The notes below the pieces were generated by a model. It was given only the letters and a program-made list of their open reading frames with translations, was not told where the DNA came from and ran no database searches. Positions 6,713 through 64,000 of a stretch of 64,000 nucleotides of DNA are shown piece after piece. Each line of letters begins with the position of its first letter. The first letter of the stretch is position 1. The stretch comes from Malachius bipustulatus. Taxonomy: Eukaryota; Arthropoda; Insecta; Coleoptera; Melyridae. The stretch lies in contig OU342635.1 in assembly GCA_910589415.1 (NCBI GenBank), positions 12,028,001 through 12,092,000 of the forward strand, in the 5' to 3' direction. The position numbers and the translations under genes are program-made.

Positions 6713-8933
6713 TACTTTATGCACTCTTAATGATAATCATACATTTTATGAACTTGGAAACGTCTAAACAAGTGCATTTTATGAATCACTCGTAGATAAA
6801 GCTAATATTTCGTTCTACTCATAATTACAAATTGGTCATGAGTGTTATGATTGGAAAACGTAATTTAGCTTGTAGCGGGGTCTAAAAACACAATAAATTA
6901 TAATAATTGTCCTCTGTTCTCTGTGAGACTAGTTATCAGCGCTTCACTCGATCTAGAACTTACTACAAACATTTTAATTTAACCTGCGGAATGCATAAAA
7001 AAATTGAACTGATACATTATTGGTCCTTCGTTACTCAAATGACATCTCCTACATTCTTGTCAGTTTATATACTAATTTTTTATTATTACTATTAGATCTC
7101 TCTATTTATTGCTGGAGTCCAAATGATATTATTTTAGTTTTTTTTTATTAACTCGTTCTGTTGTCTATCTGTGTGCTTAAATCTTGTATTCGATTTTAAA
7201 TTAACTTCCCGAAGAGCTAGAGACTTGAAACTTTTAACATAGCCCAGTACTCGATGACAATGCAAGCTTAGTTCTTTTTCTTATGCGTTTCTTGGGCTGT
7301 TCGTCGCAAATTTTGTAAAAATCCCTAGCGGCAAAGAGACTTTAAGTGAAGCCAAATTCAGACACGACAAGAACGTGAACGTCTAGAGGCCACATAATTA
7401 AAATGAAAATAAATTCAGTATGTTGCAAATAATTTCAATATATTGAAAAACATACCTTGAATTTCTCATCTAGCGAAAACACAAATAAGTAGGTAAGTAC
7501 AATTCCCGTTATGTAGTATATTATATGTATACAGGGTTATCCTAAATAGTTTCAAGCTTTGGTTTGTATTGACTAATTCAAATCATTACGTGAAGAAGTT
7601 GAAAAACATTCTGCTCAATTTTATATAAATCTTTTACAAGAGTTGAAAGAAAGTTGCAATCACTTTCCCAGTTCAGAACTTGATAAATCTAAATGAAGGT
7701 AAAATGAAGGACTTTCCGTTAAACTTGTTTTTCAAATCATTAAGCAATATTTGCTTTTTTTTTGCAGGAAGATTTTGATCAAACTTCATGTGAATGAAAC
7801 ACTCATAAGAAGTGGATCTATAAGTAGTTATGCAAAATGTTTTTATAGAATATTTATTAGAAAACATTTATTTCTCGTGATACTTATTTTATTGTTAATT
7901 ATTTGTCTATATTTCTTAAAATTTATGTATTATAAGAACATGAATAAAAAAAAATGTCATGAAAAATACGGAATAGTAAATAGTATTAAAAGCCCTACAA
8001 CTAACAACAAATATAACATAATATAGAAGTAACAGTACAGCTAATTCTACTGATGTAAATAATAATAACTGATGAAATAATACCAAGCAATAATAATAAA
8101 GAATCACTTTTTGTCCTAGTCTGGAGAGATTCACTGGCGAGGCGACACTAGGCCGCCCAATAAAAAATCAGTGAAGCAAATAATGAAATTACAGGTACCT
8201 ACATCATTGAAATAATTTTCAATATAATTTATTATCGAAAAACAATAACGTTTTCTGAACGACACATTTGCCCTAACGGTATGGTGAAGACAGAGACATC
8301 GATGTTTCAATGGTTATTTTCATCTCATCAGTCTGTCACATCACCACCATCAGAGGGAGTGCACCGAACAGAAAGAAAACCAACATACGTTTTTTTTCGC
8401 TTTTTTTCCGACAAATCAATATGCTTAAGTATGCTGGTTTTCTTCCTGTTAGCAAGAAGCTAGAAAAATGGACGCTCAGAAGTATACATGTCCAAAACAC
8501 ATAACTAACCTAAGTCCAGCAAGTGGGAAAAAAAAATGGAATACTTGCCAGTTTAAAAAATACTCAATTCCATCTTTTTTCTCTAACTTATATGTTTCCA
8601 ATTTCATTCATGATGTATTTGAAAAAGTGCTTATTTAAAATACTTGTACAAATTTATATTAAAATATGTGTAATTAAAGAAGCTGTTGAAAAACAATGCT
8701 GCCTGAAAAATGTGGTTTTTGAACTTGGGCTATTTCTGTTTTAAAGTAAAGATTTGCAACATTTAGAATGAAAGAGGGTAAAGTTTATTTAAACTAGGAA
8801 GTCACCGTTCCATTTGAAAAAAAATAATGCATAATCTATTACATGCGCCCCATGCGCGTTTGTAGTTTTAAATCTTTCCATTCCATTGGTAATAATTATT
8901 ATTAGTTTATGCTTTTTAGTACATACAGGGTGG
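6713..8933. other. AT-rich sequence without genes
   Basis: Only low-complexity reading frames occur here. An isolated TATACAGGGTTATCC at about 7529 resembles the terminus of the palindromic elements found elsewhere, but no partner end is visible. Confidence 0.45.
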
Positions 8934-9779
8934 CCAATTAGTGCGACAAAGGTCAATATCTCCTGTACCATTGAAGATAGCGGAAAACTTTTTTCAAGAA
9001 AGTTATTAAGGATTAAGAGATGCATCTTTTAAAATTATTTTCGACTATACAGGGTGCTCCATAAAGGCGGGACGGTAAAAAGTTCATGTTTTTTAAATGG
9101 GACGCCCTATATTTTATTGCATTTTCAGATTGTCTGAGAAAATGTAATAACAATAATGTTTATAGTTGCATTTTAAATTGAGTAGGCTATGGAGTTATAA
9201 ACAAGTGAAAATCGCAATTTTCCAACTTTAAACCCATTTACCACAAAAACGGCCCATAATATCAAAAAACGGCTTACATGTTCCTATCTTAACTTTTTAT
9301 AAGGCATCCAATTATGCAGTTGAAATGTTTATACAAGGTGGTGAAAATTATCAGATTTTCCATCACCCTGCATAAACATTTAAACTATACAGTAGGATAC
9401 CAGATAAAAATTTAAGATAGGGTCATGTAAGCCGTTTTCTGATATCTTGAGCCGTTTTTGTGGTAAATGGGTTTAAAGTTGGAAAATTGCGATTTTCACT
9501 TGTTTATAACTCATAGCCTACTCAATTTAAAATGCAACTATAAACATTATTGTTATTACATTTTCTCAGACAATCTGAAAATGTAATAAAATATAGGGCG
9601 TCCCATTTAAAAAACATGAACTTTTTACCGTCCCGCCTTTATGGAGCACCCTGTATAGTCGAAAATAATTTTAAAAGATGCATCTCTTAACCCTTAATAA
9701 CTTTCTTGGAAAAAGTTTTCCGCTATCTTCAATGGTACAGGAGATATTGACCTTTGTCGCACTAATTGGCCACCCTGTA
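8934..9779. mobile_element. Layered palindromic transposon 1 (846 bp)
   Basis: Almost the whole element is one large inverted repeat: TACAGGGTGGCCAATTAG at the left edge and its complement at the right edge, with TA on both sides. Inside, a second pair of ends (TACAGGGTGCTCC at 9048, GGAGCACCCTGTA ending 9655) bounds a second shell. Within that lies a core (about 9109-9594) that starts with an ACATTTTCAGATTG-like word and is shared with the element at 33524-34380. It has no transposase frame. I infer a non-autonomous Tc1/mariner-group element, because the TA target and TACAGG(G/A)TG-type termini match the element at 11328-13028, which has a recognisable transposase. Confidence 0.8.
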
Positions 9780-9813
9780 TGTGTAAAAAATGTGGCTTTT
9801 CAGTGAAATTAAT

Positions 9814-10429
9814 TATTTTTTAGCGCATCGCCTCTGAAAGACAATTTTTCAGTAGCTTAGTAGCCGGCGGAATGACGCATATTGCAGCCTACATGCGATA
9901 GCAGCTCTCTTCCAAGCGTACAAAATTTTCCAGCCCGCAACGAACGTTTTTTCTGGCCCTAGGGCGGACAGATTTAGTCGTTACTATAACAACTAACTGT
10001 TATCAGTTAGTGATTAGCCGGCAGGTATTCAGCGCTCGGCAGCGAAATTCAACCACACAGCTGACAACTACCGAGACTGCGATATATACGCGCATATTTC
10101 AATCAAGTCTAAACGAGCTGGAAATATAATAACAGGTAGGTACCTATCTAATTATAACGATTAACGGGGGTTACTAGTTTCTGAGGTTTCGTCAATAAAG
10201 AAACAAAATGAACGCTAGACAGTAAAATGACACTGACAGTGAATTAATTTGTACGCCACCACATATTCGCCAACGATCTAACAAGGCAAAGTATTCAGTG
10301 TTCTAACGCGATGCGCTAAAAAATAGAGTCTATATCTCGGCCGGATCAGAAGTCCATTTCAACTCGTATTCAAAAACTTCATACTCGCTGAAATGAACTT
10401 CTTTCCGCCCTTGATATAGAATATACTAT
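9814..10429. repeat. Tandem duplication, unit 1
   Basis: The unit starts with ATTTTTTAGCGCATCGC, and its complement GCGATGCGCTAAAAAAT lies at 10308-10324, so 511 bp are bounded by a perfect 17-bp inverted repeat. A further 100 bp follow and form an imperfect hairpin (GAAGTCCATTTCAACTCGTAT against ATACTCGCTGAAATGAACTTC). The whole unit recurs 611 bp downstream. It is moderately GC-rich with no credible ORF. The origin is unclear: a small DNA transposon plus flank duplicated together, or one larger hairpin-ended repeat. Confidence 0.75.
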
Positions 10430-11090
10430 TTTAGCGCATCGCCTCTGAAAGACGATTTTTCAGTAGCTCAGTAGCCGGCGGAATGACGCATATTGCAGCC
10501 TGCATGCAACAGCAGCTCGCTTCCAAGCGTAGAAAATTTTCCAGCCCGCAACGAACGTTTTTTCTGGCCCTAGGGCGGACAGATTTAGGAGTTACTATAT
10601 CAACTACTGATAGTGTTATCAATTCGTGATTACGCGGCAGGTGAGAGCGAAATTGAAGCACACAGCTGACAACTAAACCGAGACCACTATACCTACGCGC
10701 ATATTTCAATCAAGTCTAAACGAGCTGGAAATATAATAATAACAGGTCAGGTCAGGTCACCTATCTAATTATAAGGATTAACGGGGGTTACTAGTTTCTG
10801 AGGTTTCGTCAATAAAGCAACAAAATGAACGCTAGACAGTAAAATGACACTGACAGTGAATTAATTTGTACGCCACCACATATTCGCCAACGAGCTAACA
10901 AGGCAAAGTATTCAGTGTTCTAACGCGATGCGCTAAAAAATAGAGTCTATATCTCGGCCGGATCAGAAGTCCATTTCAACTCGTATTCAATCGACCCTTG
11001 CTCCGCTACGCTCCGCTCCGCTCCGCTCGGCCCGATAACTTCATACTCGCTGAAATAAACTTCTTTCCGCCCTTGATATAGAATATACTA
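10430..11090. repeat. Tandem duplication, unit 2, with extra CTCCG-rich loop
   Basis: This is a second copy of the preceding unit with scattered substitutions and short indels. It differs mainly by a 46-bp stretch at about 10991-11036 made of CGCTCCG/CTACG microrepeats. That stretch sits exactly at the tip of the terminal hairpin, where unit 1 has only two bases. Either unit 2 gained the loop or unit 1 lost it. Confidence 0.75.
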
Positions 11091-11327
11091 ATATTGTTTT
11101 TCAGAGTCTTACAGTCAGTAAGCTTTTTTTTTATCATTGTTACTTAATTCTTAAGTCCGAAAAATAACAAAGTGATAATATGTTGTATTAACTTGTAAAA
11201 AATTAGCACAATTTATTACAAAACCTCGAAAATTGTGTCTTAAATTTTATAAAACTATACTTTATAAGTGACGTGTCATGTAAGGAAGGAACACTATACA
11301 ATTATTACCTTCCGTTAGACGAGATAA

Positions 11328-13028
11328 TACAGGATGTCCCGTAATTAGCGTGCAATACTGAAACATCAGATTCTATTTTCAAAAATATGAAAAAAAGTTC
11401 CTATAAAAATAGGTCGAGAAATGCTTCCTAAGGAGGCTACAGCCCCCGAAAGGGGAGCCCATGAAGATGGTTTTTATTTAATACCTCCGAACCCGTTCAA
11501 GATTAAAAAAGTGAAAATTTGGGAATTTATCAAACTTTTTATGGCCAATAAAATTCAATTACAACAATTTTAATATTTCTATTAGGGGGGTCAGATAGGT
11601 GAAGAGTGAGGTTAAAACCACCCTAACTTTTTTTGTACGTACTTCATGCCAGGATTTGATATCAGATTATGAAATGTTGAAGTTTTGTACACAAAAAAGG
11701 TCGTCTTCTTGAATTTCGATAACATGCACCGTTTTCGCTTAAAATCGATTTGGAAATTACCTTGCATGGCATAAAAATTCATAATGAAACACAACTAGGG
11801 GAAAAGTTTCTATTAGAAAAATATTCAACGTAGGCCGTGGATCACGGGATGTAATAAGTGACAGGTTGTTTGAAAATTGTGTTTCACACTAATTAAGTAG
11901 AATAAAAAAAAATTTATTGAGTACTGTTGGCTGAGCATGAATACCGACGATGATTTCCAAACCGAAGAGCTCCTACACGTCAAATGTTCACCCGCATACG
12001 TCAACGTTTAACGGAAAATGGCAATTTTAGACGTGCTCGCGGTCAGGGGAGACCTCATCATAGGAATCATGCAGTTGAAAATTTTTGGGCCCATGAAAAT
12101 CCGTGATTAGTATGACGGAAAAGCGTCCAACGTAGATTTTCAGTGAATTTATGGGCTGGAATAATAGGAGATCAACTAATCGGTCGAATAGAACTCCCCA
12201 ATCGCGCCTTAATGCGAATGGTTACGTGAACTTTCTCGAAAACAATCTCGGTAAACTATTGGAAGATGTTCCGTTGAATTTGAGAAACATAATGTGGTAT
12301 CAGCATGATGGGGCCCCACCTCATTATGCGGGTCCATAGCTTTGCCAGCCCGATCTCCCGACTTAAACCCTCTAGACTTTCATTTTTTGGGAGAATCTAA
12401 AAATCGAGATAAAAATGTAGCTGCCAATGAAATTAAAAGGAACCGATTCCAAATTTTGAGAGCTTCTAGAGCTCTGAGTCGTCGGGCCCGATTATGCGTT
12501 GACCAAAATGGAAATCATTGCTCAAGTAAAAAAAAAACCGACCAGAAACTTTTTCTCTAGTTGTGTTTCATTTTAAATTTTTATGCCATGTAAGGTAATT
12601 TTAAAATCGATGTTCAGAGAAAACGGTGTATGCTATCAAAATTCAACAAGACAACCTTTTTTATGTAAAAAACTTCAGCCTTTCATAATCTGATATCAAA
12701 TCCTGGCACGAAATACGTACAAAAAAAGTTAGGGTGGTTTTAACCTCACCTTCACCTATCTGACCCCCCCCTAATGGAAATTTAAAAATTGTTGTAATTG
12801 CATCTTATTGGCCATAAAAAGTTTGATAAATTCCCAAAATTTCACTTTTTTTATCTTGAACGGGCTCGGAGATATTAAATAAAAACCATCTTCATGGGCT
12901 CCCCTTTCGGGGGCTGTAGCCCCCTTAGGAAGCATTTCTCGACCTATTTTTATAGGAACTTTTTTTCATATTTTTGAAAATAGAATCTGCTGTTTCAGTA
13001 TTGCATGCTAATTACGGGACAGCCTGTA
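11328..13028 (+). mobile_element. Mariner-like element with ~480-bp inverted repeats
   Basis: Termini are TACAGGATGTCCCGTAATTA and its near-complement TAATTACGGGACAGCCTGTA. The inverted repeats run 11328-11809 and 12545-13028 and remain easily alignable by eye despite many substitutions. They contain GC-rich words such as GGGGGCTGTAGCCCCC. Between them is a degraded transposase on the plus strand. This is the only element in the window that links the TACAGG(G)TG-type ends to a transposase, so it is the best clue to the class of the other palindromes. Confidence 0.85.
11920..12540 (+). pseudogene. Mariner/Tc1-type DDE transposase, degraded
   Basis: Fragments of the transposase remain in shifting frames. 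An N-terminal helix-turn-helix part reads RQRLTENGNFRRARGQGRP near 12001-12055. The catalytic region includes WAG at about 12154, then an NGYVNFLENNLGKLLEDVP stretch at 12204-12278. It continues with the motif HDGAPPHYA near 12304-12330 (which carries a conserved catalytic Asp of the family) and ARSPDLNPLDFHFLG near 12346-12390. These motifs are typical of the arthropod mariner-like group. Stops interrupt at about 12105 and 12338, frameshifts are present, and the region is shorter than the ~350 codons of an intact transposase, so it is inactive. Its long flanking inverted repeats are unusual for classical mariners, which have ~30-bp ends. Confidence 0.8.
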
Positions 13029-15299
13029 TTGTTATTACAGCTTAGCTGATGCAAGAACTCTTTAATAAGCTTCTTGGAAAGGTAAAAAGAAAATTATAAT
13101 TTACTATATTATAAACTTTTAACTAGCTTTATAAAAAGTTAAACTGGTTAAGTTTGAATAAGTAAAATTAAATATCAAAGTGATATTCATGTTTCATGGA
13201 CTCTTGTTTCAATTTACTTGAAAAAAGAAAACTATCGAATAAAGGCTAGAAATTCGTGAATGGCTATACTTATAAAAATGTAAAACTTTTAATTAGGTCC
13301 CTACATACTTTTTTGGAACTTATTTATTTAAAACTTTAAATTGGATTCTCTATAGGTACTAATCAAAAAAATATATATGCATATGCCGCATAATAAATCT
13401 TAAATGCAAACAGTTTTCTTATCGGGACCTGTCAGGAGTTTTGTGATTGAATAAGGGTAGTGATGACTTTCATTACCCAGATCACGGCCGGCGGAGATGA
13501 TCGTCTTTTCCACGACCTCATCTAGTTTCCCGGTTTGGGTTCCCGCAGACCCCTATAATACGACCCTTATAAAACGTTGCCACTTTAATCCCTTTGCCAG
13601 AATAGCTCTTTTGAAACAACCTGCAAGAAAATATATCTTTCGATTATGATCAAATTCTATAAACCTTTAAATATAACACAAACTCATTAATATCGTTTGA
13701 ATTATTGTTGGCGCGAGGCTGCTGTTAGGGTCTAGTTGCATTATCCCATTTTCTTGGTGAAGGTAGTGGAGTTGGCAACGTGACACCGGCGCAGGCGTCG
13801 CGATGCTGGGGTTGAAGCGCCGGGCGCCATCCAGTCTGCCCAAGACGCCAGCGAGGACGAACTGACACCTCTCGCTGATTTAGTGCCCCAAGTGACTGTG
13901 TCAAGTGTAAAGTGTCCGTGTGAGTGTCCCCCGCCTATCCGCCTCCTGAATTCGGGTGTTTATTTCTTGGTAAAGTGTTGAAGGGGTTGAAATAAACTTC
14001 CAGAGGTAGGTGACTTATTCGATATTTTGAAACAACATAAGTATTATTATTATATTATTACCTCTCAAGTTTATTCTGAAGGAATTCATTAAGAAAAAGA
14101 CACAAGATTTTAGGCTCAATTTCTAAACTTATTTAGCTGTAAAAATGTACTTACATTCGAAATTTAGTTGTAAAGTTTGTGCGTAAGTTAACTTTCCGAA
14201 ACTTTTTTTTACATAAAACCATTTTTATAAAAAATTATTTATTTTTATTTCTTGTTTGTTAAATTAAATAACAGCAGATTACAAAAACATTTTCCAACGA
14301 TAAGTGATTAAATTATTATTCACACTTTTATTCCCTTAATCCTAAAATAACGTACCTACTTTTTTTTAATGCGCTTAAACTGAAAAAAAATATATATTTT
14401 AACTGTTTGGGTCCTTGATAACTCGTGGCAATAACAAACTTCATTCATTAGACATGGTTTCTCGGCCTTTCATTTTCCTTGGAGTTTTCATTATTATGAA
14501 ATGTAATAATTTTTTTTAATATTATACACGTAGATACCTATTATAATAGCGGGACCAACATTTATATATTCGATGACATTACTTTATGCCCTCTAGAAAT
14601 AAAGCAGGCTTTTTCTGACAGCAATATTACAATAATTTATGGGTGTGAAAAATGAAAACTGCCAGTTCTGGATTAAAATTTTTATTACATCGTTAGTACC
14701 TATTACCTATTCCTTTTGCTTCGCTTCGCTTACTGATATATTGTTTTGGCGAATGTGATAACAACCATTTTATCCCTTCGGAGATGAATGTGGAAAAATT
14801 TTGGCCTTAATGGTACTCTCGATGGCACAATGAGCGCCCTTATATCAATTTAATAGCAGCTGGACAATTATATGAGAAATAAACTGCCCAATTTCCGTCT
14901 TAATAGAAGCACCGCTTGAAAATGTTCCTTCTAACTCTTATTTTTGAAAAGTAAAGATATTTTCCCAACTTTCAAGGCTCTAGCTTTTGTAAAATCTTTA
15001 AATTCAGTTGAATTAATACCGAGAATAAATTCTAACATGTGACATATTATTATCTGCTCTAGCAATTTAAGTCCCATCTCTAGGGAATTCCGAACCTAAA
15101 CTTTAACACTTAATTTTATCTCGGAATTAATTACTAAAACGTTTTTAGCAGATTAAATCTACCACGAATGGAGCATTTGTGCTGAACTCGTGTTTTTTTA
15201 ACCGCTTGTTGGGGGGGAATTTAAGAGAACAATATTTTTTAGTGTCCGGAATCGATTTCTACGAGACATTTTTTCATAAATATTTTATGACATACATGA
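13029..15299. other. Mostly unannotated; contains one GC-rich block
   Basis: AT-rich sequence apart from the GC- and CpG-rich block at 13740-14005, listed separately. A run of CTTCG/CGCTT microrepeats lies at about 14718. No protein match was seen. Confidence 0.4.
13766..14005 (+). other. Possible untranslated first exon
   Basis: A 240-bp GC- and CpG-rich island stands out from AT-rich flanks and ends in a splice-donor-like CCAGAG/GTAGGTGA at about 14006. It has no TATA box and no long ORF. This would fit a CpG-type promoter and 5' UTR of a gene whose coding exons lie outside the window to the right. It is inference only; a GC-rich repeat would look similar. Confidence 0.25.
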
Positions 15300-23780: not shown

Positions 23781-24983
23781 TACACCGTGTTTTATATTAA
23801 GTCGGCACTATTGCTAACTTCGTTATTATTTAACCTAGAAAGTCGGTTAAATTAGCAAACTAGTAGTATTTTTTCTGCTGAATAAAATGGCGAAAACAGA
23901 AAAACAATTGAACATCGCGATTTCGAGATATTTAAAAAAATGTACCTTTTTTAATGGAACACCCTATATATTTTTGGATGGATCGGTTGCAAGTTTTTTT
24001 TTAAAGGAAAAAGTCTCTATGCACTATGATCCTAAAATAATAAATTCATTAATTATTCATTATTTTATTACTCCCAAAGTTGGCTGCGACAATTAATGTA
24101 ATTTAGTGTACCTACCTACGTAATGTAAGGTAAAAAAATATATCGTCCTCAATAGTGTATTTTTCAATAAAAAAATACACAAAAAAAGGAGTTGTTATAT
24201 GGAAAAGGATTTAATTTCAAATAAACAAATAACAGAACTTGTATGTGTTCTAAAATAAGTCGGCACTATTGCTACCTTCGTTATTATTTGAGCTAGAAAG
24301 TCGGTTAAATTAGCAAACTAGTAGTATTTTTTCTCCTGAATAAAACGATTAAAACAGGAAAACAATTGAACATCGCGTTTTCGATATATTTAAAAAAATT
24401 GATATTTTTTATGGAACACCCTGTATATTTTTAGATGGATCGGTTGCAAAATTTTTTTTAAAGGAAAAAGTCGCTATGCACTATGATCCTAAAATAATAA
24501 AATTTTACACACAAACAAGTTCTGTTATTTGTTTATGTAAAATTAAATCCTTTTCAAGGTAACAACTCTTATTTTTAGTGTATTTTTTTATTGAAAAATA
24601 CACTATTGAGGACGACATAATTTTTTTACCTTACCTACATTACGTAGGTACACTAAATTACAATAATAATTGTCGCAGCCTATACTTTGGGAGTAATAAA
24701 ATAATGAATAATTAATGAATTTATTATTTTAGGATCATAGTGTATAAAGACTTTTCCCTTTAAAAAAAAATTTGCAATCGATCCATCTAAAAATATACAG
24801 GGTGTTCCATTAAAAAAATTACATTTTTTTAAATATCTCGAAAACGCGATGTTCAATTGTTTTTATGCTTTCGCCATTTTATTCAGGAGAAAAAATACTA
24901 CTAGTTTGCTAATTTAACCGACTTTCTAGGTTAAATAATAACGAAGTTAGCAATAGTGCCGACTTAATATAAAACACGGTGTA
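23781..24983. mobile_element. Large palindromic element with an extra internal arm copy (1.2 kb)
   Basis: The left arm (23781 to about 24245) and right arm (about 24506-24983) are inverted copies with ends TACACCGTGTTTTAT and complement. Each arm starts with a 188-bp block (23781-23968 and 24796-24983) that is itself bounded by TACACCGTGTT and ...GGAACACCCTATA, i.e. by inverted TACAGGGTGTTCC-like ends. Between the arms, about 24255-24505 is a third, directly oriented copy of the start of the left arm. TA flanks both edges. There is no transposase. I infer a non-autonomous mariner-group foldback element that suffered an internal duplication. Confidence 0.8.
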
Positions 24984-32300: not shown

Positions 32301-33523
32301 CGCCTCATCACGCATGCCATCTATACAGATATATGTATAACCTACTTAAACGTAAATGAAGGTGACGACGTGTCTTTGCTGTCCTAATAATGTAAAGTCT
32401 AGACGAAGATCAATCACGCTCTAGGATTGTCTCAATCAGTCTGCTCATTCTGTATTCCCTATTCAGACTAATAGAGCGCGTCTGTCCGTCTGTATCTTTC
32501 ACTTTCAGTCAAGTAAAAGCGGTAATATCTTAGCTATTGTTAATGTAGAGGATAATATGACTCTAAGTCGGCCCAGAACGCTTTTACATCAGAACCGAAA
32601 TCTATTAAACATAACAGCAAGTTCGCCCATGTATAAACCCCACTCAATAACGCCCGTTAGACGAGGGTCTAACGTCGAGTCAGTCGGAACAGCAGCTGGT
32701 CTTCAGCTCCAAGATATATGTTAGTTGTCATCAAGTGTTTTATACTTTCTGTCATAAGTAGCATAATCAGGGACACATATAGTGGAAGACAGAGAATAAC
32801 TGGCTAACCGGCGAGCAAGCTGTCGATTGGGGTGCGTAATAGACCTTCTATCCTATATGGCGAGTAGTCATGTTTGTAAAAAAAGGATAATTCGCAGTCC
32901 CTCGACTTGTCTATGTTACTAACACTGTCGTTTTGACGCTGACGCATTTCTCTTATACTTCGTGTCTTTTGAGTTCTCTGCTATTGATGTTTTTCCGATA
33001 CGATGTTTACTTACATATGCGCCAATTAGGTACTTACTACAGAACTCGGTAGATCACTAAGTTCCTTCAAAGCTTTACCTATTTAATCGCTCCTCTCGTC
33101 TGAATTTCTTGCTCTGACCTTATTCATAATATTATGTGAATCGATCATCATGTTTCTCTGCCACTCAGTTCGCCACCCTGTTGGGAGCTCTATCTTCAAT
33201 ATATGTCTGACTTTATCAAATTAAGACGAATCTACTTAGTAAAGAAATTTTAAAATGATTACTAATAACGAAACTTAACACTCTTGAAAATATATGCTCG
33301 AATCTACGCAGTTTTCTCCAGTTTTCGCGGCCGCCAGTCTTTATTGGGAGTCTATTCCTCCGGGAAATTATATCTAGCAACTTTCCGTGTATAACTTGAG
33401 CCACATAATTGTAGTTCCGTAGTAACTATGTGCCTAAGGTAGGTAACTCAACGAAGAAACGTGATACGCCAGGTGTCAGTGAAGTTGTTACAGGGAAATG
33501 CAAAATTAACGGCTTCCATAATA
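32301..33523. other. Sequence without recognisable features
   Basis: No supportable gene, repeat or RNA. Confidence 0.4.
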
Positions 33524-34380
33524 TACAGTGTGGAAAAGCCAAATGGAATAAATTCGATAATAAATCAATGGAGATGGGTGCCAAAAAACGCTCGGACACA
33601 TCGATTAGTATTTTTGGTTGCGCATTTTTTTCAATGAAAACTTTTTATACAGGGTGTGTCGTGTAACAGTGCTCAATACCAACTTTCTTCTTTCAAATCA
33701 AACACCCTGTATATTATTACATTTTCAGATTGCCTGAAAAAATGTAATAATAATGCTGTTTATAATTCAAATTTGTAACGAGTGATTTTTGAGTTATAAA
33801 CAAATGAAAATCGCATTTTTTAATTTTCAAAAAAGTGTGTACACCGATAACGGCTCAAGATGTCGGAAAACGGCTTACATGTCCCTAGCTTAACTTTTCA
33901 TTTAGAGCCCTATTAGGTAGTTTAAATTTTTATACAGGGTCATGAAAATTACCAGATTTTTAATCACCCTGTATAAAAATTTCATCCACACAATAGGATA
34001 CTATATGAAAAATTAGGATAGGGACATGTAAGCCGTTTTCCGACATCTTGAGCCGTTATCGGTGTACACTGTTTTGAAAATTAAAAAATGCGATTTTCAT
34101 TTGTTTATAACTCAAAAATCACTCGTTACAAATTTGAATTATAAACAGCATTATTATTACATTTTTTCAGGCAATCTGAAAATGTAATAATATACAGGGT
34201 ATTTGATTTGAAAGAAGAAAGTTGGTATTAAGCACTGTTACACGACACACCCTGTATAAAAAGTTTTCATTGAAAAAAATGCGCAACTAAAAAAACTAAT
34301 CGACGTGTCCGAGCGTTTTTTCGCAACCATCTTCATTGATTTATTATCGAATTTATTCCATTTGGCTTTTCCACACTGTA
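33524..34380. mobile_element. Layered palindromic transposon 2 (857 bp)
   Basis: The outer ends are TACAGTGTGGAAAAGCC and its complement, with TA flanks. A second pair of ends (TACAGGGTGTGTCG at 33648; its complement ending at 34256) encloses a 64-bp block that itself ends in CCCTGTA (33705-33711), mirrored at 34193-34256. The core 33712-34192 is shared with the element at 8934. At the centre a 41-bp mini-palindrome (33933-33973) again has TACAGGG...CCCTGTA ends. The outer shell shares GCTCGGACAC-TCGATTAGT-like words with the element at 43927. There is no transposase. Confidence 0.8.
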
Positions 34381-34497
34381 TGATAAATAGCAGTGCGGAA
34401 ATGAGAGTTTATAAGGACGAGTGCGCTCGTCGTGGAGTAGTTTAAAAGTACGAATCTTGTTACGTAGACGGGGGGAGGGGAGGGGGGGAGCGGTCAG

Positions 34498-43575: not shown

Positions 43576-43926
43576 TAAAGTAAAATTTTTAGCGGTAAAA
43601 TTAAAAGCGGTATTTTTTATTAAAAAATACACTAAAAGCAAATTATCCCCTACTTTACAGTTTACTAGGTGAAGCTGATTGGGAGGATCTTCGAGGTGAG
43701 CACGATGTTAACAAGGCCTGTGCTATTTTCTATAACACTTTGTACAATATCTTTGAAATGTCAGTGCCAATATCTAGTATTGAGGACGACATCACTTTTC
43801 GAAAATCACCCAAACTCATCAAATGTCCACCGATCATGACCCCCAGATCACGAAAAAGTGGTTTTCCAAAATTCACCTGCCCACGATATATATATATAGA
43901 TTTATATATATTAAGTACGATTTATA

Positions 43927-44574
43927 TACAGTGCTTCCCAAAAGTAACGGATAAATTCAATAAAATCGTATGAAGACGTTTTCTTTTGTTTTGCTCGGAC
44001 ACGTCAATCGTTATTTTTGATTTGCCATCCACGCATGTCTTTTTCGACCCCCCACCCTTAATCTCCCAAGGGGTAGCTACCCCAATTTTAAAAATTCAAA
44101 TGGCAAGGTACCCCTTGCGATACCTTGATTGATAGGTTTTTTCATCCTGAATATAACAAGAAAATTTTTTTCAAATCGGTTCATAATTAATTTAATTTAG
44201 TTTAATTTAATTCAGAGAGAAAGATAGGAAAAAATTTTAATTAAATTTTAATTTAATTTTAATACGCTTATTTATTGCCTTATTCGATGACATTTTGCTG
44301 AATATTTTCGTTAATTATGAACCGATTTGAAAAAAATTTTCTTGTTATATTCAGGATGAAAAAACCTATCAATCAAGGTATCGCAAGGGGTACCTTGCCA
44401 TTTGAATTTTTAAAATTGGGGTAGCTACCCCTTGGGAGATTAAGGGTGGGGGGTCGAAAAAGACATGCGTGGATGGCAAATCAAAAATAACGATTGACGT
44501 GTCCGAGCAAAACAAAAGAAAACGTCTTCATACGATTTTATTGAATTTATCCGTTACTTTTGGGAAGCACTGTA
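43927..44574. mobile_element. Palindromic element with apparently perfect 264-bp arms
   Basis: The arms at 43927-44190 and 44311-44574 look identical on inspection, starting TACAGTGCTTCCCAAAAG. The 120-bp spacer is AT-rich and non-coding. The flanks are a TATATA-rich site, consistent with TA target choice. The arms include GC-rich words (AAGGGGTAGCTACCCC and GACCCCCCACCC), and share GCTCGGACACGTC with the outer shell of the element at 33524. Perfect arms imply a recent insertion or recent arm conversion. No transposase. Confidence 0.88.
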
Positions 44575-46060
44575 TATATATTTATATATTTCTCCAAAAT
44601 CGCGAAATTTCGATTTTAAAAACGCTCCTGTAATCTTTCAAGATTAGTAAACGAAATTTTGGATCCTTATAAAGCTTTGGAATGACTTTACATTTTCGTT
44701 GAAAAAATTTCCAAAAGTCGAATCACTTCTACAGGGTGTCCCTTCAAAATTCCCGCAATCCGGTTTTTGTGGTATCATTTCAGGTCGCAGTTTTTAATCT
44801 AAGAGGCTGAAATTTTTGTGGGAGTAAGATATCCACAAGGAGTGGTCTGGTATTGCACTTGAGCAAAATCGGCCAAGCCGTTTCAAAATGGCAGCCATTT
44901 GAATTTCTTGAAAATTTGCTATTTTTTGAGCCCCTGTATGAGCAAGATGGCAATAAAACTTTGAAATAAAATTAACAAGATTGGAAGAAAACTATTTGAA
45001 ATTTGAATTAAAGCAATAAAATTGACATTATTTATATTAATAAGCCAGTGGCGTGGGTAGGAAAAGGGTAAAAATGTCTAAATTTCTATAACCGTTTATG
45101 AGTTCATTTTTAAAGAAATTGAACTGAAAATTTCACAGTAGGCAAGTACACTAATATCCTTTAACCCTTAAAAGTTTCAAGAAGTAAATAAGAAAAATGA
45201 CGGAGATATTAATATTTTTTTCATATGATGTTTATTTCTGTAAAATTTTAAAACCGCTGCTGTAGCTTCATATTTAAGGATTAGTGAACGAAATTTTTTA
45301 CCCTTGTGAAACTTCGAAATGACATTTGATTTTCGTAAAAAATTTTTCCTAAAGCTGCGTTACTTCTACAGGGTGTCCCTCCAAATTAAAAACAAAAACC
45401 GTCTATGAGGCACGGTTTCTGGTCGCAGTTTTCAATCTAGGGGGCTGAAATTTTTTTATGAGCAAGATAGCCGCAAGGAGCGTCTGGTTCTGTATTTGAG
45501 TAAAATCGAGCCGTTTCAAAATGGCGGCCTTTTAAATTTTAGAAAAAATTGCCAAAATTTGAACCCCTATACCTACCTACCTATAAGCAAGTTAGAAAAA
45601 CAAATTTAAACCAAATTAACACGATTGGAAGAAAATTATTTTAAATTTGAGTTAATGCAGTAAAATTTGTATATTTTTCATTAATAAGCCAGTGGCGTGG
45701 GTAGGAAAAGGGTAAAAATGGCTAAATTTCTATAACCGTTTATTAGCCTTTTTTGAAGGAATTGAGCTGAAGTTTTTCCAGTAGACAGTTTTAACATGAT
45801 GTTTATTCCTCTAAAATTTCAAATTTTCGGTTTTCAAAATTTCCCTTTCACTTTTTGCGAATTTATTAAAGGTAGTGTAAAGAATAGTATTTTTTAAGTA
45901 AAGTTAGCCAGTGGCGGACACAGGAAAAGGAAAAAAAAATTAAATTTGCCAATTTTTTTTTATTTTGTTAAATTTAAAAATCCATTCTAAGGCACGTGTC
46001 CAAACTAAATGAAATGAAATTTTCTCAGTAAACCACTACGCTAATATGACCTGACTATGA
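44575..46060. repeat. Degenerate tandem repeat array, period about 640 bp
   Basis: Long words recur in direct orientation: CTTCTACAGGGTGTCCCT at 44728 and 45367; AATAAGCCAGTGGCGTGGGT at about 45039 and 45683, with a third, diverged AGCCAGTGGCGGACACAGG at 45905; and GTTTCAAAATGGC-GCC at 44880 and 45514. The array has roughly 2.3 units diverged by eye at perhaps a fifth of positions. It is non-coding. It may be an amplified old transposon or satellite. Confidence 0.8.
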
Positions 46061-46066
46061 AAAATT

Positions 46067-46909
46067 TCAGAAATCCCATTTAAAAAGCGGTGAAAATATT
46101 GATAATTGAATCGCATAAAAATACACTATTTCTGCGATTGATGCGCAAGAAGGTTTTTTAAAATTGAAACTAGACTGGGTGTTTTGATTTGTTACAAAAT
46201 TAGTCTGATGCCCGCCAACGACCCCAAACGCAATCTCAATAGTTGGATGATGATCGTCCTCGTCCACAAGAGGCTGAAGTGATCTCTCCACTCTACAATT
46301 TATATTAGAAAAAACCAGATCCAGGATGCGATCAAATTTATTAGGAATGCAGTTGTGTTGCATGAAGTTGTTAAATTCTTTAAAATTATTTATATTACGA
46401 GTAATACTGCTCCCTGAATCTGTAGCTAGGTTGGGTACATTGAAATCACCGACAATAATGACCCTGCTACCATGAACAGCCTCAACATTATTAAGCAGCT
46501 CAAGGAACAGTTCATAATCACGGACAGATGTTGAGGGCGGGATATAAACTACGAAGGTACAACATGAACCAATAGTTTCTGCTGAGATCCTAACTCCGAC
46601 GATATCAATATACGGTAAGACAGAATAAATATCACTAAGATCAATTTGCACACATTTGAAGCGATCTCGAACCGCCAGTAGCACGCCACCCCCCCTAGAT
46701 GAGGACACATGAGCGAAATCTCTATCTCTTCTAAACACAGTATAACCATCAGCAAATAGTTCTGAGTTACTTATTGCAGGACATAACCAGGTTTCGCTAA
46801 GAGCTATAATTTCACAATCACAAATAGAGACACCTGTATAAAAGGTGTCGGTCTTGGATCGCAGTCCCCGCACATTTTGATAGAGAAGATGTATTATTGT
46901 AGAGTGCAA
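46067..46909 (-). CDS. CR1-like ORF2, endonuclease domain only (truncated)
   Basis: This 280-codon frame encodes an apurinic-type endonuclease/exonuclease/phosphatase (EEP) domain, which nicks target DNA to prime reverse transcription. Visible motifs in order are YQNVRGLRSK (residues 10-19), SETWL (37-41, catalytic Glu), RGGGVLLAV (about 71-79), YIPPS, GDFNVPN (about 148-154, with Asp and Asn), ILDLVFSN (about 193-200) and EDDHHPT (about 219-225, with the catalytic Asp-His). After about residue 235 homology fades (FNFKKP), and the frame ends in unrelated sequence next to the 44575-46060 array. The reverse transcriptase is missing, so the element is 3'-truncated or interrupted. It starts 14 bp after ORF1. 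The domain itself looks intact, suggesting limited age. Confidence 0.85.
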   Translation of the reverse strand: MHSTIIHLLYQNVRGLRSKTDTFYTGVSICDCEIIALSETWLCPAISNSELFADGYTVFRRDRDFAHVSSSRGGGVLLAVRDRFKCVQIDLSDIYSVLPYIDIVGVRISAETIGSCCTFVVYIPPSTSVRDYELFLELLNNVEAVHGSRVIIVGDFNVPNLATDSGSSITRNINNFKEFNNFMQHNCIPNKFDRILDLVFSNINCRVERSLQPLVDEDDHHPTIEIAFGVVGGHQTNFVTNQNTQSSFNFKKPSCASIAEIVYFYAIQLSIFSPLFKWDF

Positions 46910-46923
46910 AATGGGTGAAGTAT

Positions 46924-47700
46924 TTAGTTTAAATGAAGGATCTTAGGAACACCATTCACATACCGAATCCTCAGTCCCTCCTCCCCGTTGGCAGTCCTCT
47001 CCATCATCTCGGCCTTCAAGCGCCTGTACGATTCCTGTTGCTTGGGTGTCTTATCGGTGGTAATGATAACAGAACTGAATCTATCATGATTCCTTAATTT
47101 ATGACGATTTCGGATGACGCCGAGAACATGAGTTTCATCTCTTAGTCTAATCCTCACTGGTCGGGCTCGTGAACCTTCCTGCGGGCTGTATCGACCCAAT
47201 CTCTCAACTGTGACACCAGAAAAATCGTTCTCGGGGTCGACAACTCCCAAAACACTGATAATCTCCGTCCTCTCATCTCTAATACGCTGCTCCCTGGAGA
47301 AAGAACTTGGCAGTTCAGGTAAATTGAAGACAATCAAGTTATTGGAACGTTTTTGCCGTTCAAACACCTCTTGAGTGACCTCTTCAAAGATGTCGGAGTT
47401 CCTCTGGGATATACTAGATCTTATATCAGCCAGTTGAGAATCAAAATCGTCCTTGATCCTCCTCAAGGAACCAGCGAACTCCTGCTGCAAATTATTGATG
47501 AGAACCTTCATGTCCCTATAGCTTGACAAATTGCCATTACAGGAGTTGCACACAACTTTGAAAGACTTTGACTTCGCTCGAGTCATTTTCACCTCGCTCT
47601 CAGAAAGGCCCACGCAAGTGTGATGTAAGGATCCCTGACAAACATCACACTGTAGACTGCTAGGTTTCCCAACAAGGCCGCAATTAACACACTGGTTCAT
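46924..47700 (-). CDS. CR1-like ORF1 (PHD-like finger, coiled coil, RRM-like)
   Basis: Taking the ATG at 47700 gives about 258 residues: MNQCVNCGLVGKP... The open frame runs back to 47835, but the extra 45 residues are low-quality. Residues 4-55 hold a Cys/His cluster (CVNCG, CDVCQGSLHHTC, CNSC) like the PHD-type finger of CR1-group ORF1 proteins. A helical, probably coiled-coil region follows to about 120 (LINNLQQEFAGSLRRIKDD). The C-terminal half (NLIVFNLPE, VERLGRY, RPVRIRLRD and a KLRNHDRFSSVIITTDKTP stretch) matches the RRM plus C-terminal domain of L1/CR1 ORF1p RNA chaperones. It would bind element RNA. It is intact and adjacent to the ORF2 fragment on the same strand. Confidence 0.85.
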   Translation of the reverse strand: MNQCVNCGLVGKPSSLQCDVCQGSLHHTCVGLSESEVKMTRAKSKSFKVVCNSCNGNLSSYRDMKVLINNLQQEFAGSLRRIKDDFDSQLADIRSSISQRNSDIFEEVTQEVFERQKRSNNLIVFNLPELPSSFSREQRIRDERTEIISVLGVVDPENDFSGVTVERLGRYSPQEGSRARPVRIRLRDETHVLGVIRNRHKLRNHDRFSSVIITTDKTPKQQESYRRLKAEMMERTANGEEGLRIRYVNGVPKILHLN

Positions 47701-47835
47701 TTTAACCAGACGCCAACAGAAGAACAAACGCTGCAATAATGTAGACACACAAAATATGTAAAATCCACAGTACTCAGCCTCCTGGAACTCGCAGAAGTAA
47801 TGAAAATGAAAAATTTGATTATAAAATTTTCTCAT

Positions 47836-48268
47836 TTCAAAAAGATTTTCAACAACTGATTTGGCAGTATAATTAAAAAATAAGATTTTACTTTGGAAAG
47901 GCTTATCGACAAACGAAAATTTGAATTTGATTAGGGGGAGAACTGCACCACGAAGTATTCAAAATTTAAAACCATATTCAGAACAAGTAAAGTGCTTGGT
48001 AATATTGTAACGACAATTCTTTACCGGAGGTTCGGAGGTAGTTCTGTTTTGCTGGATTGGAGTTAACGACGCAGAGGGGATTGACCGACCCTCATTATTA
48101 ATCGAAAAGCTGGAATTGACTGGGTCCAGGAGATTTGAATATTTTTGAATATATGTATGAAAAATAAATAAAAAAATAATTACATTTATATTCAATTTTA
48201 TACAAACCATACATTATTGTTATCAGTTTTTTGATTCTAATACTCATCCAATTGTATACGTAATATAA
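47836..48268. other. Possible 5' UTR of the CR1-like element, otherwise unassigned
   Basis: This lies immediately upstream of ORF1. No terminal motif, promoter or target duplication can be identified. AT-rich. Confidence 0.3.
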
Positions 48269-59460: not shown

Positions 59461-62080
59461 CACTTCACGCCCATGGAGACTTTTGATCGCCGTAAATATA
59501 TTTGAATTTCAGCAATTTTAACCAAGGGATGATCTCTATTTGATAATATGTGCGGTGTGAATTCTGAAAATTCATTAAGTCAACTTTGCTGGCAGATATC
59601 TACAGTTAGGCGACAGTTATCCAGCTGCGGCTTTCAGTGAAACCTTAAGAATTTAATTCTCTCTTAACTATGTAAAAATAAATATGCTATTCTATTTAAT
59701 TTTTTGGAAAATAATCGACATATTCCCTTACATGTCAAATAACGCCCTCTAGCGGTTGCGGTGGTAATACAATGAAAAATTCGTAAGATGCAATCGACAG
59801 AAGAAGGAAAACTCTTTTTAATGACACTAATCTTGTTAAATTGTTTCAACAAAGTTTCGACGTTCCCCTACCACTTTATTTATGAAGTTATACCCATGAT
59901 ATTTTAAATATGCCCTAATTTTGAAAAATAATGCATGAGAAAATTCAAATTTTTTATTTAGTCATGGTACGCACCCTGGCGGTCATTTTAGAAGCTCAAA
60001 AACCATTGTCCAATGAATTTTATGGGTCACTTTCCTTGGAATTTTTTTTGCCTGAGGCTGTACGACGCATTGCTTCTGAGATATTCCCGGTGACCATATT
60101 AATGACTCATCCGGGACTGGAGGTTAATGCAAGGAGCAAATTGGAAGAAAATTCAATTTGGAACCTCAATTGGAGGGGTTTTCTAGCTGCCCCCCAGTAA
60201 TTTCCTTCAAAATGGTAGATTCTTTGTGAAATCGCACGCAAATTGCAATAATTTCCAGGTGCTTTTTGCATGAACAAGAAACACGTAGGCTTCAATACTA
60301 TGCCATTACTGGCATTTGACATTCGAAAAAACCGACTACGTCATATCAAGAATTATTAATCTATGAAGTCTAAAATTAACATGGTTAAAATACGGTGGGT
60401 TTATTAACATATGCACGCCTACACACAGCACTGAAAAGCTACCAGAGCACTAAAAAATCCAGATGCATAAGTAAACACTGTTTTTACAAAAAATCCAGCT
60501 ATTCCCGTTTATATCGACCCTAATAAACCTCTAGCTCAGTCAGTGTGATCCTGATGGTCGATACACCAAGAGAATTGCTACAAAACTTTTTTCTAGCAAA
60601 CTCCTTCACTGATGGATTCATCTTACTTGATTTGATCAACTTGATCAACTTGATCAACTGAAACTGTTACGACAGTTTGACGTAATTACTTAAATTCGCT
60701 TGAGTTATATTGACTTGTGATTAAGTAACAGAACGCCAGTTGATAGTTTAAAGTAAACTCAAGCAAGAGTTGATAAATTCTCGCGTGGTAAATTCTTCTT
60801 GTGCTGACAACTTATTAAGTCATCATTGATCACGCTGAAGCCTACGATCAGTCCCAGTTCTGAGACATTCAAACTGGGAGATCTTCAAACTTTAATAATC
60901 AGAGCGCATTTCGTATTTAATATTACAGACTAGCTTAATATTAAATTTTAAATTGAAAATTTGCTACCATGCGCAAAAAATGTTCCACAAGATACAGCTG
61001 AGTTTATAAAATAGACGTTTTTTCATCAAAGCACTTCAATTTTCCTCGATTCCCTCTTCCATCGTGGCATTCGACACGCACGTCACTGAGAGTCAGTAAA
61101 AGGGAACACCTAATCTTAGAAAAGCACGAAAGAAACGATAGGTGACTTAATGGAAGAGGAATTTAACAGACAGACCGTTCCAACGATATTTGTGTCACTC
61201 TTCAAGAAAATATCCGGAAACGTATTCGCAGTTGCTGCGGAGCGAGTTCAAGATAATGTCCAATCCATTTATAGCTCAGTTCTTAAGGTATTTCTATTAT
61301 TTTTGGAGATACAAAAATACTTACAAAGGAACTGTATTTTTATCTGATCAAAAACAAATCCATCCGGGAAAGAAGATGAACGGCTAATAAAACTCCAAGC
61401 TTTTTAATTGATTTTTCACATGGGTTCGAAAGGACTTTATTCTTCGAGGGACGGTTATTCCATAGCAGATAATTGCAATTAATTGTAATTGCCTTAAGAT
61501 CCTTTTTAGGAAATTTATTAATGAATTTCTGATGATTGTTCTATGAACCATCAGGAACATATCAATCAGGTATGTAAATTGCCAATTGAGGGTAAATGAA
61601 ATTATGTGTAAAGCCGTGGCAGCTCAGAATTGAAATTTACATAAATTAAAATTTGACTAAAACCCTTCCAAAGATCAAATTATATTTTCTATGAATCTAA
61701 AAGATCAATAAAAATTTTTCATATCCAATCAAGCGATTTCAATCAATTTTTGTAGCAGATTTATATTGAGGAGCCCTAATCAGTTTTCTCAGAAAGTACT
61801 TTCCATGAAAGATGAATCATTTTTTTCTTCGAGAATCATGAAGCATCTTTTGTTGTTATTGTGATAAACTCAGTTACTATGCTAGGATCGCAATGTGATA
61901 ATCTGGAAGAAGGGTGAAAAATTAAAACACCACTTAACAATAACACTTTAACTGTATTAAGATTATTATTCTAATTTATATTCTTCATTGCGAATATTAT
62001 CGTTGATACCTACTACTGTCAATGCCATGTTGATATAAACATGCCGACTGATCGCTATCAGTTTATGCTGACGGAAATGT
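59461..62080. other. Sequence without recognisable genes
   Basis: The 89-codon plus-strand frame at 59931-60200 has no recognisable domain. A short 9-bp tandem repeat (TTGATCAAC, three units) lies at 60632-60658. Confidence 0.35.
60632..60658. repeat. 9-bp tandem repeat, 3 units
   Basis: Three exact copies of TTGATCAAC, preceded by a partial fourth. Confidence 0.85.
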
Positions 62081-62207
62081 TCCTACTAAATATTTGGTAT
62101 TTGGTATTGATATTGGTATTTTAGCTAAATGTGAGAGATGGTCTATGTGGTCCCAAACACTGAAGCCAGCGGGCTTATTGTATTTCTCACATTTAGATTT
62201 TCCTTGG

Positions 62208-62483
62208 TTAAAAGAGCTCCGTTCCTTTGACAAGGTTCAGCAGTCCGCTAACCAAGGTCTTTTCCGCTAGCAGGCTCCCGTGACTGAGTGATCCAAGAAC
62301 CGCATAGCGCGTTCGTGCGAGTGCTGGACACTCGAATATCACATGAGAAGCTGTCTCATCTTCTTCATTGCAGAGTCTACAAACTGGTTCTTCTCTGTAT
62401 ATCCCCAGTTTATGTAGGTGTACTCTTAAGTGGCAGTGTCCTGTGATTGTGCAGCTGTCGTACTCGCTGGTCTTGTAGCACTG
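62208..62483 (-). pseudogene. ORF2 C-terminal zinc-knuckle fragment
   Basis: The minus strand is open from just after a TAG (62484-62486) to a TAA at 62208-62210. It reads SCTITGHCHLRVHLHKLGIY, then CRLCNEEDETASHVIFEC, then PALARTRYAVLGSL. This is the region after RNase H in R1/LOA/Jockey-type ORF2: a TGHC--L--HLHKLG helix followed by a C-x2-C-x8-H-x4-C knuckle thought to bind nucleic acid. The fragment is uninterrupted for about 91 codons, so selection, transfer of function or simply youth has preserved it. No start codon or upstream catalytic domains are present. Confidence 0.75.
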
Positions 62484-62883
62484 CTACTTCCCTGCTAGTC
62501 CTCACAGCTGTGTGTTTCAACTTGCATAGGTTCCAGGGTGGTATGGTTTGGGGGCCTGCCACATCCTGTGAATCCATGCTAAGTTCTGAGGTTTCTCCTT
62601 GTGGAAGTCCCTCAGTTGTTTGTTTGGTTTCTTCTTTGGTTTCCACTCTGGTCCCACAAGAATTGGAGAAATAAAAATACTGCGCCATAGCCCCAATGAC
62701 GCAGCAGGCTACATACAACGGGGTGCACCAGGTTCCCCGAGGTTTGTCGCTAGTTGTAGAGCTCCCCCTCGACCATGCATCCATTGGTGAGCACAACACC
62801 GTGGAGTTGGGGAGGTTTTTATAGTGGTCCTCATCCACGCGGACGTGCGGTTAAGCCAAGCCCCCGTGCCCCTGGCGTCACTA

Positions 62884-62919
62884 CCCTGAGGCAAGTCACG
62901 ACAGTGATGTACCTCAGGG
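62884..62919 (-). other. Stable hairpin in the element's 5' leader
   Basis: CCCTGAGG (62884-62891) pairs with CCTCAGGG (62912-62919), and GTCAC/GTGAT extends the stem. It lies about 45 nt downstream of the ribozyme. It could be a leader structure or protein-binding site. Confidence 0.5.
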
Positions 62920-62961
62920 GTCGTTGTACCGCCTAGCGGTTTACGGTTTGTGCCATGTTTT

Positions 62962-63101
62962 GTCAGAGCCTTGTTAGCCGTGGTACTCACAAGTGGTACC
63001 ACGTTGCCCGGTCCCCACGGTCTTGGACGTAAGGTTGACTTATCCACCACATGACTGGAATCGCCTATGCTTTGATCAGTTGTGAGTGGACCTTAAGGAC
63101 C
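62962..63101 (-). ncRNA. HDV-like self-cleaving ribozyme
   Basis: Read 5'-3' on the minus strand, all helices of the nested double pseudoknot are present and contiguous. P1 is GGTCCTT (63101-63095) with GGGGACC (63016-63010). The J1/2 insert is 55 nt. P2 is GTCA-a-CCTT (63039-63031) with AAGG-ctc-TGAC (62972-62962). P3 is ACG/CGT with an 8-nt loop TCCAAGAC. J1.1/4 is GGGCAAC (63009-63003), P4 is GTGGTAC/GTACCAC, and J4/2 is GGCTAAC (62979-62973), whose C opposite 62977 would be the catalytic cytosine. A 7-bp P1 starting GG, GGGCAAC and GGC-AA are hallmarks of the family. The predicted cleavage site is exactly the insertion boundary. A long J1/2 is known in retrotransposon versions such as R2. 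Activity is inferred, not shown. Confidence 0.8.
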
Positions 63102-63115
63102 TCCTACTAAATATT

Positions 63116-64000
63116 ACTCTATTATAAAAATCTAATTATAGTTTACATACAAGCTCTTAAGGTCAAATGTCGCTGTAATACTTGCTTATGTAAAATAAAA
63201 TAGATAATTGAATACTTTGAATGATTCTATTATCATCCAATCTCACTAGCGCCTTTTCGGCCATTATAGCCTGTTAAAATGTCAGTTGTCATATTTTTTT
63301 AATAATGAATCAATGGCCAAATACTAGACTCATAAATGTTGTAAATAATTAATTTATTTCCCTTGTCAATACCAAAAAGGTTTGGTATGAACCCCAATCT
63401 CTAGAGCGCGATTGAACGCCCTAACAGTGGGATATAAATTCTAAATTGGAATCTGTCTAAAAAAAATCCACCTTAAAAAGTGACTCTCCTTGTTGATGCC
63501 GCGCTTTGCCATTTGTAATAATTTACATTCAATACAAACGATGTCTTCCCGAGTTGCTTCAGACCTTAAATTCATTTCACAACGTCGAGATGGCTATGTA
63601 AATCTTCCAACATGGGAATCCTCCTCAGATCGTATACTAACAGTATGCACTTTAAACTTAGCTACATCCATCATACATTATGCAACGCTCCAATAGTCAA
63701 GTAAATAATTGCGAATGCAAATTTCGATCCCTTTTGTTAATTGCCGTAAGCCAATTAGTTTTAATTGTCATTGTTGGGGCTTTCGGTTTAGGCATTCGTC
63801 AAATACAAAATGAAGGAGGTACTTATAAATTGTTTAAATTACAGTAACAAATATGGATAATTTGTAACAGTTTGTGAGTATTACAAGGCCTACATTTCTG
63901 GAATATGGCTTGGCAACTATGCGCTTTCTGTATAAGAAAGTAACTCTACCTCACAAATTAATTAAGGCTTCCAAGTGTTTTCTTTCAAATACAAAGCAAC
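63116..64000. other. Sequence without recognisable features
   Basis: AT-rich flank. The 68-codon frame at 63490-63696 resembles nothing known to me. Confidence 0.4.

Follow-up and report, generated by a model that had tools for sequence, protein, structure and literature searches.

Does the 5′ edge of a 1-kb insertion coincide, to the base, with the predicted cleavage site of an HDV-like ribozyme, and if so, what kind of element is it? An earlier note, made from the letters of this DNA, had proposed both the coincidence and a complete retrotransposon released from an upstream transcript by self-cleavage. We followed up this proposal across the whole 64-kb stretch of DNA (hereafter, the window). 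In our reading, to which we assign a probability of roughly 80%, positions 62095–63101 are a SIDE-type non-LTR retrotransposon that has a ribozyme at its 5′ end and a LINE 3′ end and was inserted by target-primed reverse transcription. In the following sections, we describe its boundaries, its two ends and its relation to known elements.

Boundaries and setting of the insertion

The insertion is read on the minus strand and is delimited by the following features.

62095–63101, minus strand: insertion of an apparently non-autonomous non-LTR retrotransposon, 1007 bp, GC content 0.50
62081–62094: target-site duplication at the element 3′ end, 14 bp, TCCTACTAAATATT
63102–63115: target-site duplication at the element 5′ end, 14 bp, TCCTACTAAATATT

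The two copies of the duplication are identical and the neighboring base is mismatched on either side, so that the match length is exactly 14 bp, as the earlier note had it. The 5′ copy directly adjoins G63101, although the element could begin a few bases farther upstream if its first bases equal the end of the duplication. Base composition sets the element apart from its surroundings: GC content is 0.50 within 62095–63101 versus 0.32–0.33 in the flanks (approximately 0.9–1 kb on each side). At the 5′ edge it steps sharply from 0.24 outside to 0.53 inside (100 bp each), whereas the 3′ edge shows no such step (0.38 inside versus 0.36 outside, 100 bp).

Direct repeats of this size are not rare. 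Under the final limits of our count (three letters, flank identity 0.5), the window holds four isolated direct pairs of 14–20 bp lying 500–3000 bp apart, compared with a mean of 1.0 and a maximum of 4 in 60 first-order Markov windows counted under identical limits. A stricter count (all four letters, flank identity below 0.45) gave three isolated pairs; it leaves out the target duplication, because TCCTACTAAATATT contains no G. Exact 14-mer pairs at the same distances number 426 in a plain count, most of which presumably come from repeated DNA in the window. Taken alone, the 14-bp repeat is thus weak evidence, since isolated pairs arise about once per window by chance; its weight comes from its position and from the content between the copies. 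The same numbers lend some support to the explanation that a ribozyme-like fold and a chance repeat lie side by side with no functional link, and so does the smooth GC profile at the 3′ edge. Against this explanation stand the sharp GC step at the 5′ edge and the exact end of one repeat at the first base of the ribozyme.

The window contains no second copy of the element (a BLAST search of the window with the element returned short chance matches only), and Rfam at gathering scores gave no match anywhere in it, rRNA families included. As far as the window shows, which covers 0.9 kb on the 5′ side of the element, the insertion site therefore lies outside rDNA.

Other repetitive features occur elsewhere in the window. 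Adjoining minus-strand frames of 344 and 291 aa at 46067–47958, of which the 291-aa frame matches Exo_endo_phos and the 344-aa frame has no Pfam match, are probably ORF1 and the endonuclease of another non-LTR element. The three longest near-palindromes (8913–9789, 33523–34381, and 43920–44581), 91–94% self-complementary over approximately 660–880 bp, are possibly foldback-type DNA elements. Further repeats lie within 9818–11090, 11326–13030, and 23781–24983, and comprise a head-to-tail repeat of approximately 0.65 kb (85%) and two inverted pairs of approximately 0.48 kb (92%).

A predicted HDV-like ribozyme at the 5′ end

The first 140 nt of the element can be folded as follows, with all parts read on the minus strand.

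62962–63101, minus strand: HDV-like ribozyme, predicted to cleave just before G63101 (descriptor and folding)
63095–63101, minus strand: P1 5′ strand GGUCCUU, paired with 63010–63016 through five Watson–Crick and two GU pairs
63040–63094, minus strand: J1/2, 55 nt, predicted to fold once P1, P3, and P4 are imposed
63031–63039, minus strand: P2 5′ strand, made of GUCA (63039–63036), one unpaired base and CCUU (63034–63031)
63017–63030, minus strand: P3, ACG/CGU, closing L3 UCCAAGAC (folding)
63010–63016, minus strand: P1 3′ strand GGGGACC (folding)
63004–63009, minus strand: J1.1/4 GGGCAA, with GG available for P1.1
62979–63003, minus strand: P4, eight Watson–Crick pairs and a 9-nt loop
62973–62978, minus strand: J4/2, sequence GCUAAC; its C at 62977 is the candidate catalytic base
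62962–62972, minus strand: P2 3′ strand AAGG-cuc-UGAC (folding)

The helices P1, P2, P3, P1.1, and P4 of the double pseudoknot thus occur in the correct order and spacing at 62962–63101. The P2 helix has a CCUU/AAGG core and a GUCA/UGAC extension beyond a small internal loop, and P1.1 could form between the CC of L3 and the GG of J1.1/4. The sequence of J4/2 supports 62977, the base singled out in the earlier note, as the candidate catalytic cytosine. U1 and G6 of UCCAAGAC occupy the positions of the reverse wobble pair in HDV-like ribozymes, so that L3 supplies the U and G expected in addition to the cytosine of J4/2. Our descriptor required neither these two bases nor the second P2 block, yet all of them fit. 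One study describes the L3 G as important in HDV-like ribozymes (PMC3774820).

The earlier note had suggested searching with an HDV-like descriptor or a covariance model, and these two checks came out differently. A strict descriptor gave a single match on both strands of the 64 kb, with G1 at 63101 and the cytosine at 62977, which places the first base of the ribozyme at the insertion edge given by the duplication, as had been proposed. It found nothing in dinucleotide shuffles (0 of 120 of the window, 0 of 5000 of the element); these zeros argue against a chance fold, but overstate independence, as the descriptor was composed after the site had been folded by hand and the comparison is a rarity test rather than a blind discovery. 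A relaxed version (looser stems, J1/2 of up to approximately 70 nt) returned one additional weak, A/T-rich place on the plus strand, with its cytosine at 29580, which looks like chance. It also returned a second P1 start at 63092. The motif GGTCC is in fact present twice at the element 5′ end (63101 and 63092, within 63088–63101), so that an alternative P1, and with it another cut site, would be conceivable; the P1 duplex is better at 63101 (−9.4 kcal/mol) than at 63092 (−8.5 kcal/mol).

The covariance models did not back the call: Rfam contains no HDV-family match to the whole window at gathering scores, nor to 62000–63200 at E ≤ 10. This silence, like the post hoc origin of the descriptor, fits a fold that arose by chance, but it may also be explained by narrow models together with the 55-nt J1/2. 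Weak matches to ACA59, TCV_H4, and lysM-Actino in 62000–63200 at E ≤ 10 fell far below their own gathering scores and were rejected. Likewise, an 18-base pattern of the ribozyme core recurred in three viral contigs and was rejected as chance, with the descriptor negative at all three loci.

Folding energetics give a mixed picture of the predicted structure. In the unconstrained ensemble, P1 (pair probabilities 0.83–0.91) and P4 (0.98–1.0) dominate, while P3 reaches 0.09–0.13 and P2 at most 0.02; the low values of P2 and P3 are not decisive, because a nested folding program cannot represent the pseudoknot. A helix between GGGC of J1.1/4 and 62966–62969 has a probability of approximately 0.75 in this ensemble. 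In the model it counts as a real competitor, since it remains when P1, P3, and P4 are imposed, and forming it would rule out P1.1 together with part of P2. The minimum-free-energy fold of the 140 nt is only moderately more stable than those of shuffles (z-score −1.8, 10 of 200 at least equally good). Imposing P1, P3, and P4 costs 2.3 kcal/mol over the unconstrained minimum, and J1/2 then forms a stem; in large HDV-like ribozymes, a structured J1/2 has been shown to accelerate the ribozyme by pinching P1 and P2 together (PMC4908430). Just downstream of the ribozyme, at 62884–62919, lies a separate hairpin with 16-nt arms (81% complementary) and a 4-nt loop.

The 3′ part and coding content

The opposite end of the element carries features of a LINE 3′ end.

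62208–62483, minus strand: open frame of 91 aa with a zf-RVT match (Pfam), read as the C-terminal end of a LINE ORF2
62125–62196, minus strand: 3′-UTR stem-loop, 15-nt arms, 93% complementary
62095–62121, minus strand: short tandem 3′ tail with a 6–7-bp period, not poly(A)

The zf-RVT domain in the 91-aa frame lies barely over its threshold (score 27.6 bits, cut-off 27.5, E = 4.8e-6), and in-frame stops stand directly upstream of these residues (frame 1). The zinc-finger tail may resemble that of the R1/LOA/I group, a candidate for the clade of the partner LINE. The fold of 62095–62210, which includes the stem-loop, is more stable than most shuffles (z-score −3.1, 1 of 200 equally good). The remaining six of the seven stop-to-stop frames of at least 60 aa within or overlapping the element, a 146-aa frame included, had no Pfam match. 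The element looks non-autonomous, because none of the seven scanned frames contains a reverse transcriptase or endonuclease. Its description as complete in the earlier note therefore holds for the two insertion ends but not for the reverse transcriptase of a full LINE, which is missing. A tRNA-derived SINE head was considered and rejected, as ARAGORN finds no tRNA in 61900–63300.

A further point against the chance explanation is that the second duplication abuts a tandem tail that stands behind a LINE-like ORF tail and a hairpin; we consider chance very improbable.

Between the ribozyme and the ORF2 tail lies a middle segment of 478 bp (62484–62961). Within the SIDE reading, this raises the sub-question of whether the ribozyme head and the 3′ part come from two different retrotransposons or from a single LINE by internal deletion. 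The R2/R1 SIDEs of Drosophila, with the same layout and 14-bp duplications (PMC3414825), give a model for a hybrid. Here, both possibilities fit the sequence equally, and we regard a hybrid origin as rather unlikely.

Searches for relatives covered collections that we take to be mostly prokaryotic or viral. The 91-aa frame gave no candidate protein relative and the 146-aa frame four, none of them at E ≤ 0.001; among contigs, none of three stretches in viral contigs and none of 459 in genome contigs was confirmed as a locus for the 91-aa frame. Exact patterns had no matches, whether taken from the middle segment (run on viral and genome contigs) or from the 3′ UTR (run on viral contigs), and phage records gave no relative. 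These blank results say little, since the element looks eukaryotic. Among the titles and abstract openings surveyed, no paper reported this element, nor any dispersed SIDE of an animal that carries an HDV-like ribozyme.

Relation to known elements and proposed mode of insertion

This architecture has precedents in the literature among R2, R1, and trypanosomatid elements. The closest parallel is with the R2/R1 hybrid SIDEs of Drosophila, which have an HDV-like ribozyme at the extreme 5′ end, directly before R1 3′ ends, carry 14-bp duplications, self-cleave in vitro and are thought to be copied by the machinery of a partner (Eickbush & Eickbush, 2012; PMC3414825). The present element likewise combines a 5′ ribozyme and a LINE 3′ end with 14-bp target duplications, and no reverse transcriptase or endonuclease. 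It differs in having a middle segment and an ORF2 tail, and is likened to these SIDEs by layout, not by sequence. Whereas R2/R1 SIDEs occupy the R1 site of 28S rDNA and are carried on rRNA transcripts (PMC3414825), it lies in A/T-rich DNA in a window with no rRNA match. The R2 SIDE of Drosophila, again comparable by layout, shares the 5′ ribozyme and LINE 3′ end, but has an R2 3′ end and sits at the 28S R2 site (PMC3414825), while our element is not at rDNA within the window. Outside rDNA, the nearest counterparts are the Pr77-bearing short elements of trypanosomatids (SIDER, NARTco, and others), which are non-autonomous and have a 5′ HDV-like ribozyme; they belong to the ingi clade and carry the Pr77 sequence, so that the likeness is one of architecture (PMC4035085). 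Its location outside rDNA is an unusual feature of this insertion.

R4, Dong, Baggins, RTE, and L1Tc are autonomous LINEs, and work by Ruminski from 2011 reportedly dealt with autonomous LINEs bearing 5′ HDV-like ribozymes. In R4, Dong, Baggins, L1Tc, and RTE, ribozyme cleavage falls at the element's own 5′ end, as is predicted here, whereas in R2 it falls upstream in 28S sequence for most species tested (PMC3774820). Unlike these LINEs, our element has no reverse transcriptase domain in the scanned frames.

For the SIDE-type element, we infer a series of steps, each of which has precedent among the elements above. A minus-strand RNA would be initiated upstream and cut just before G63101, the first base of the element. 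Such release from an upstream co-transcript, as the earlier note envisaged, would fit the sequence, and experiments on R2 and the R2/R1 SIDEs provide a precedent for it (PMC3414825, PMC3774820). By analogy, the 3′ end (ORF2 tail, 3′-UTR hairpin, and tandem tail) may be recognized by the reverse transcriptase of a partner LINE, which would copy the RNA as far as the ribozyme-made end; closure of the insertion with a 14-bp duplication would then yield a 5′-complete copy. The earlier note had the RNA copied in full, and the sequence, with both end points seen, supports a reverse-transcribed insertion that was probably copied to its 5′ end.

Alternatively, transcription could begin at G63101 from an internal promoter, with the ribozyme (intact or as a relic) serving translation or stability or having lost its activity. 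The Pr77 of trypanosomatids, described as both a promoter and the holder of an HDV-like ribozyme (PMC4748587, PMC8190864, PMC4035085), makes this conceivable, and cleavage at the present site is a prediction from modeling. A transcription start precisely at the ribozyme G1 would yet be a second coincidence, and the frames of the 5′ half contain no recognized domain that would need an IRES; we therefore consider the promoter explanation improbable, if less so than chance.

The insertion is a clean natural case of a retrotransposon junction that falls, outside rDNA, on the very base of a predicted ribozyme cut. It may, with somewhat less than even odds, represent a dispersed animal SIDE family outside rDNA, whose ribozyme would let it exploit any host transcript at its landing site, behind any promoter and without dependence on rRNA, while keeping the first copied base constant. 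If such a family is real, its many copies and flanks, sharing one predicted end, would provide a direct test of self-cleavage as the determinant of the 5′ end in vivo.
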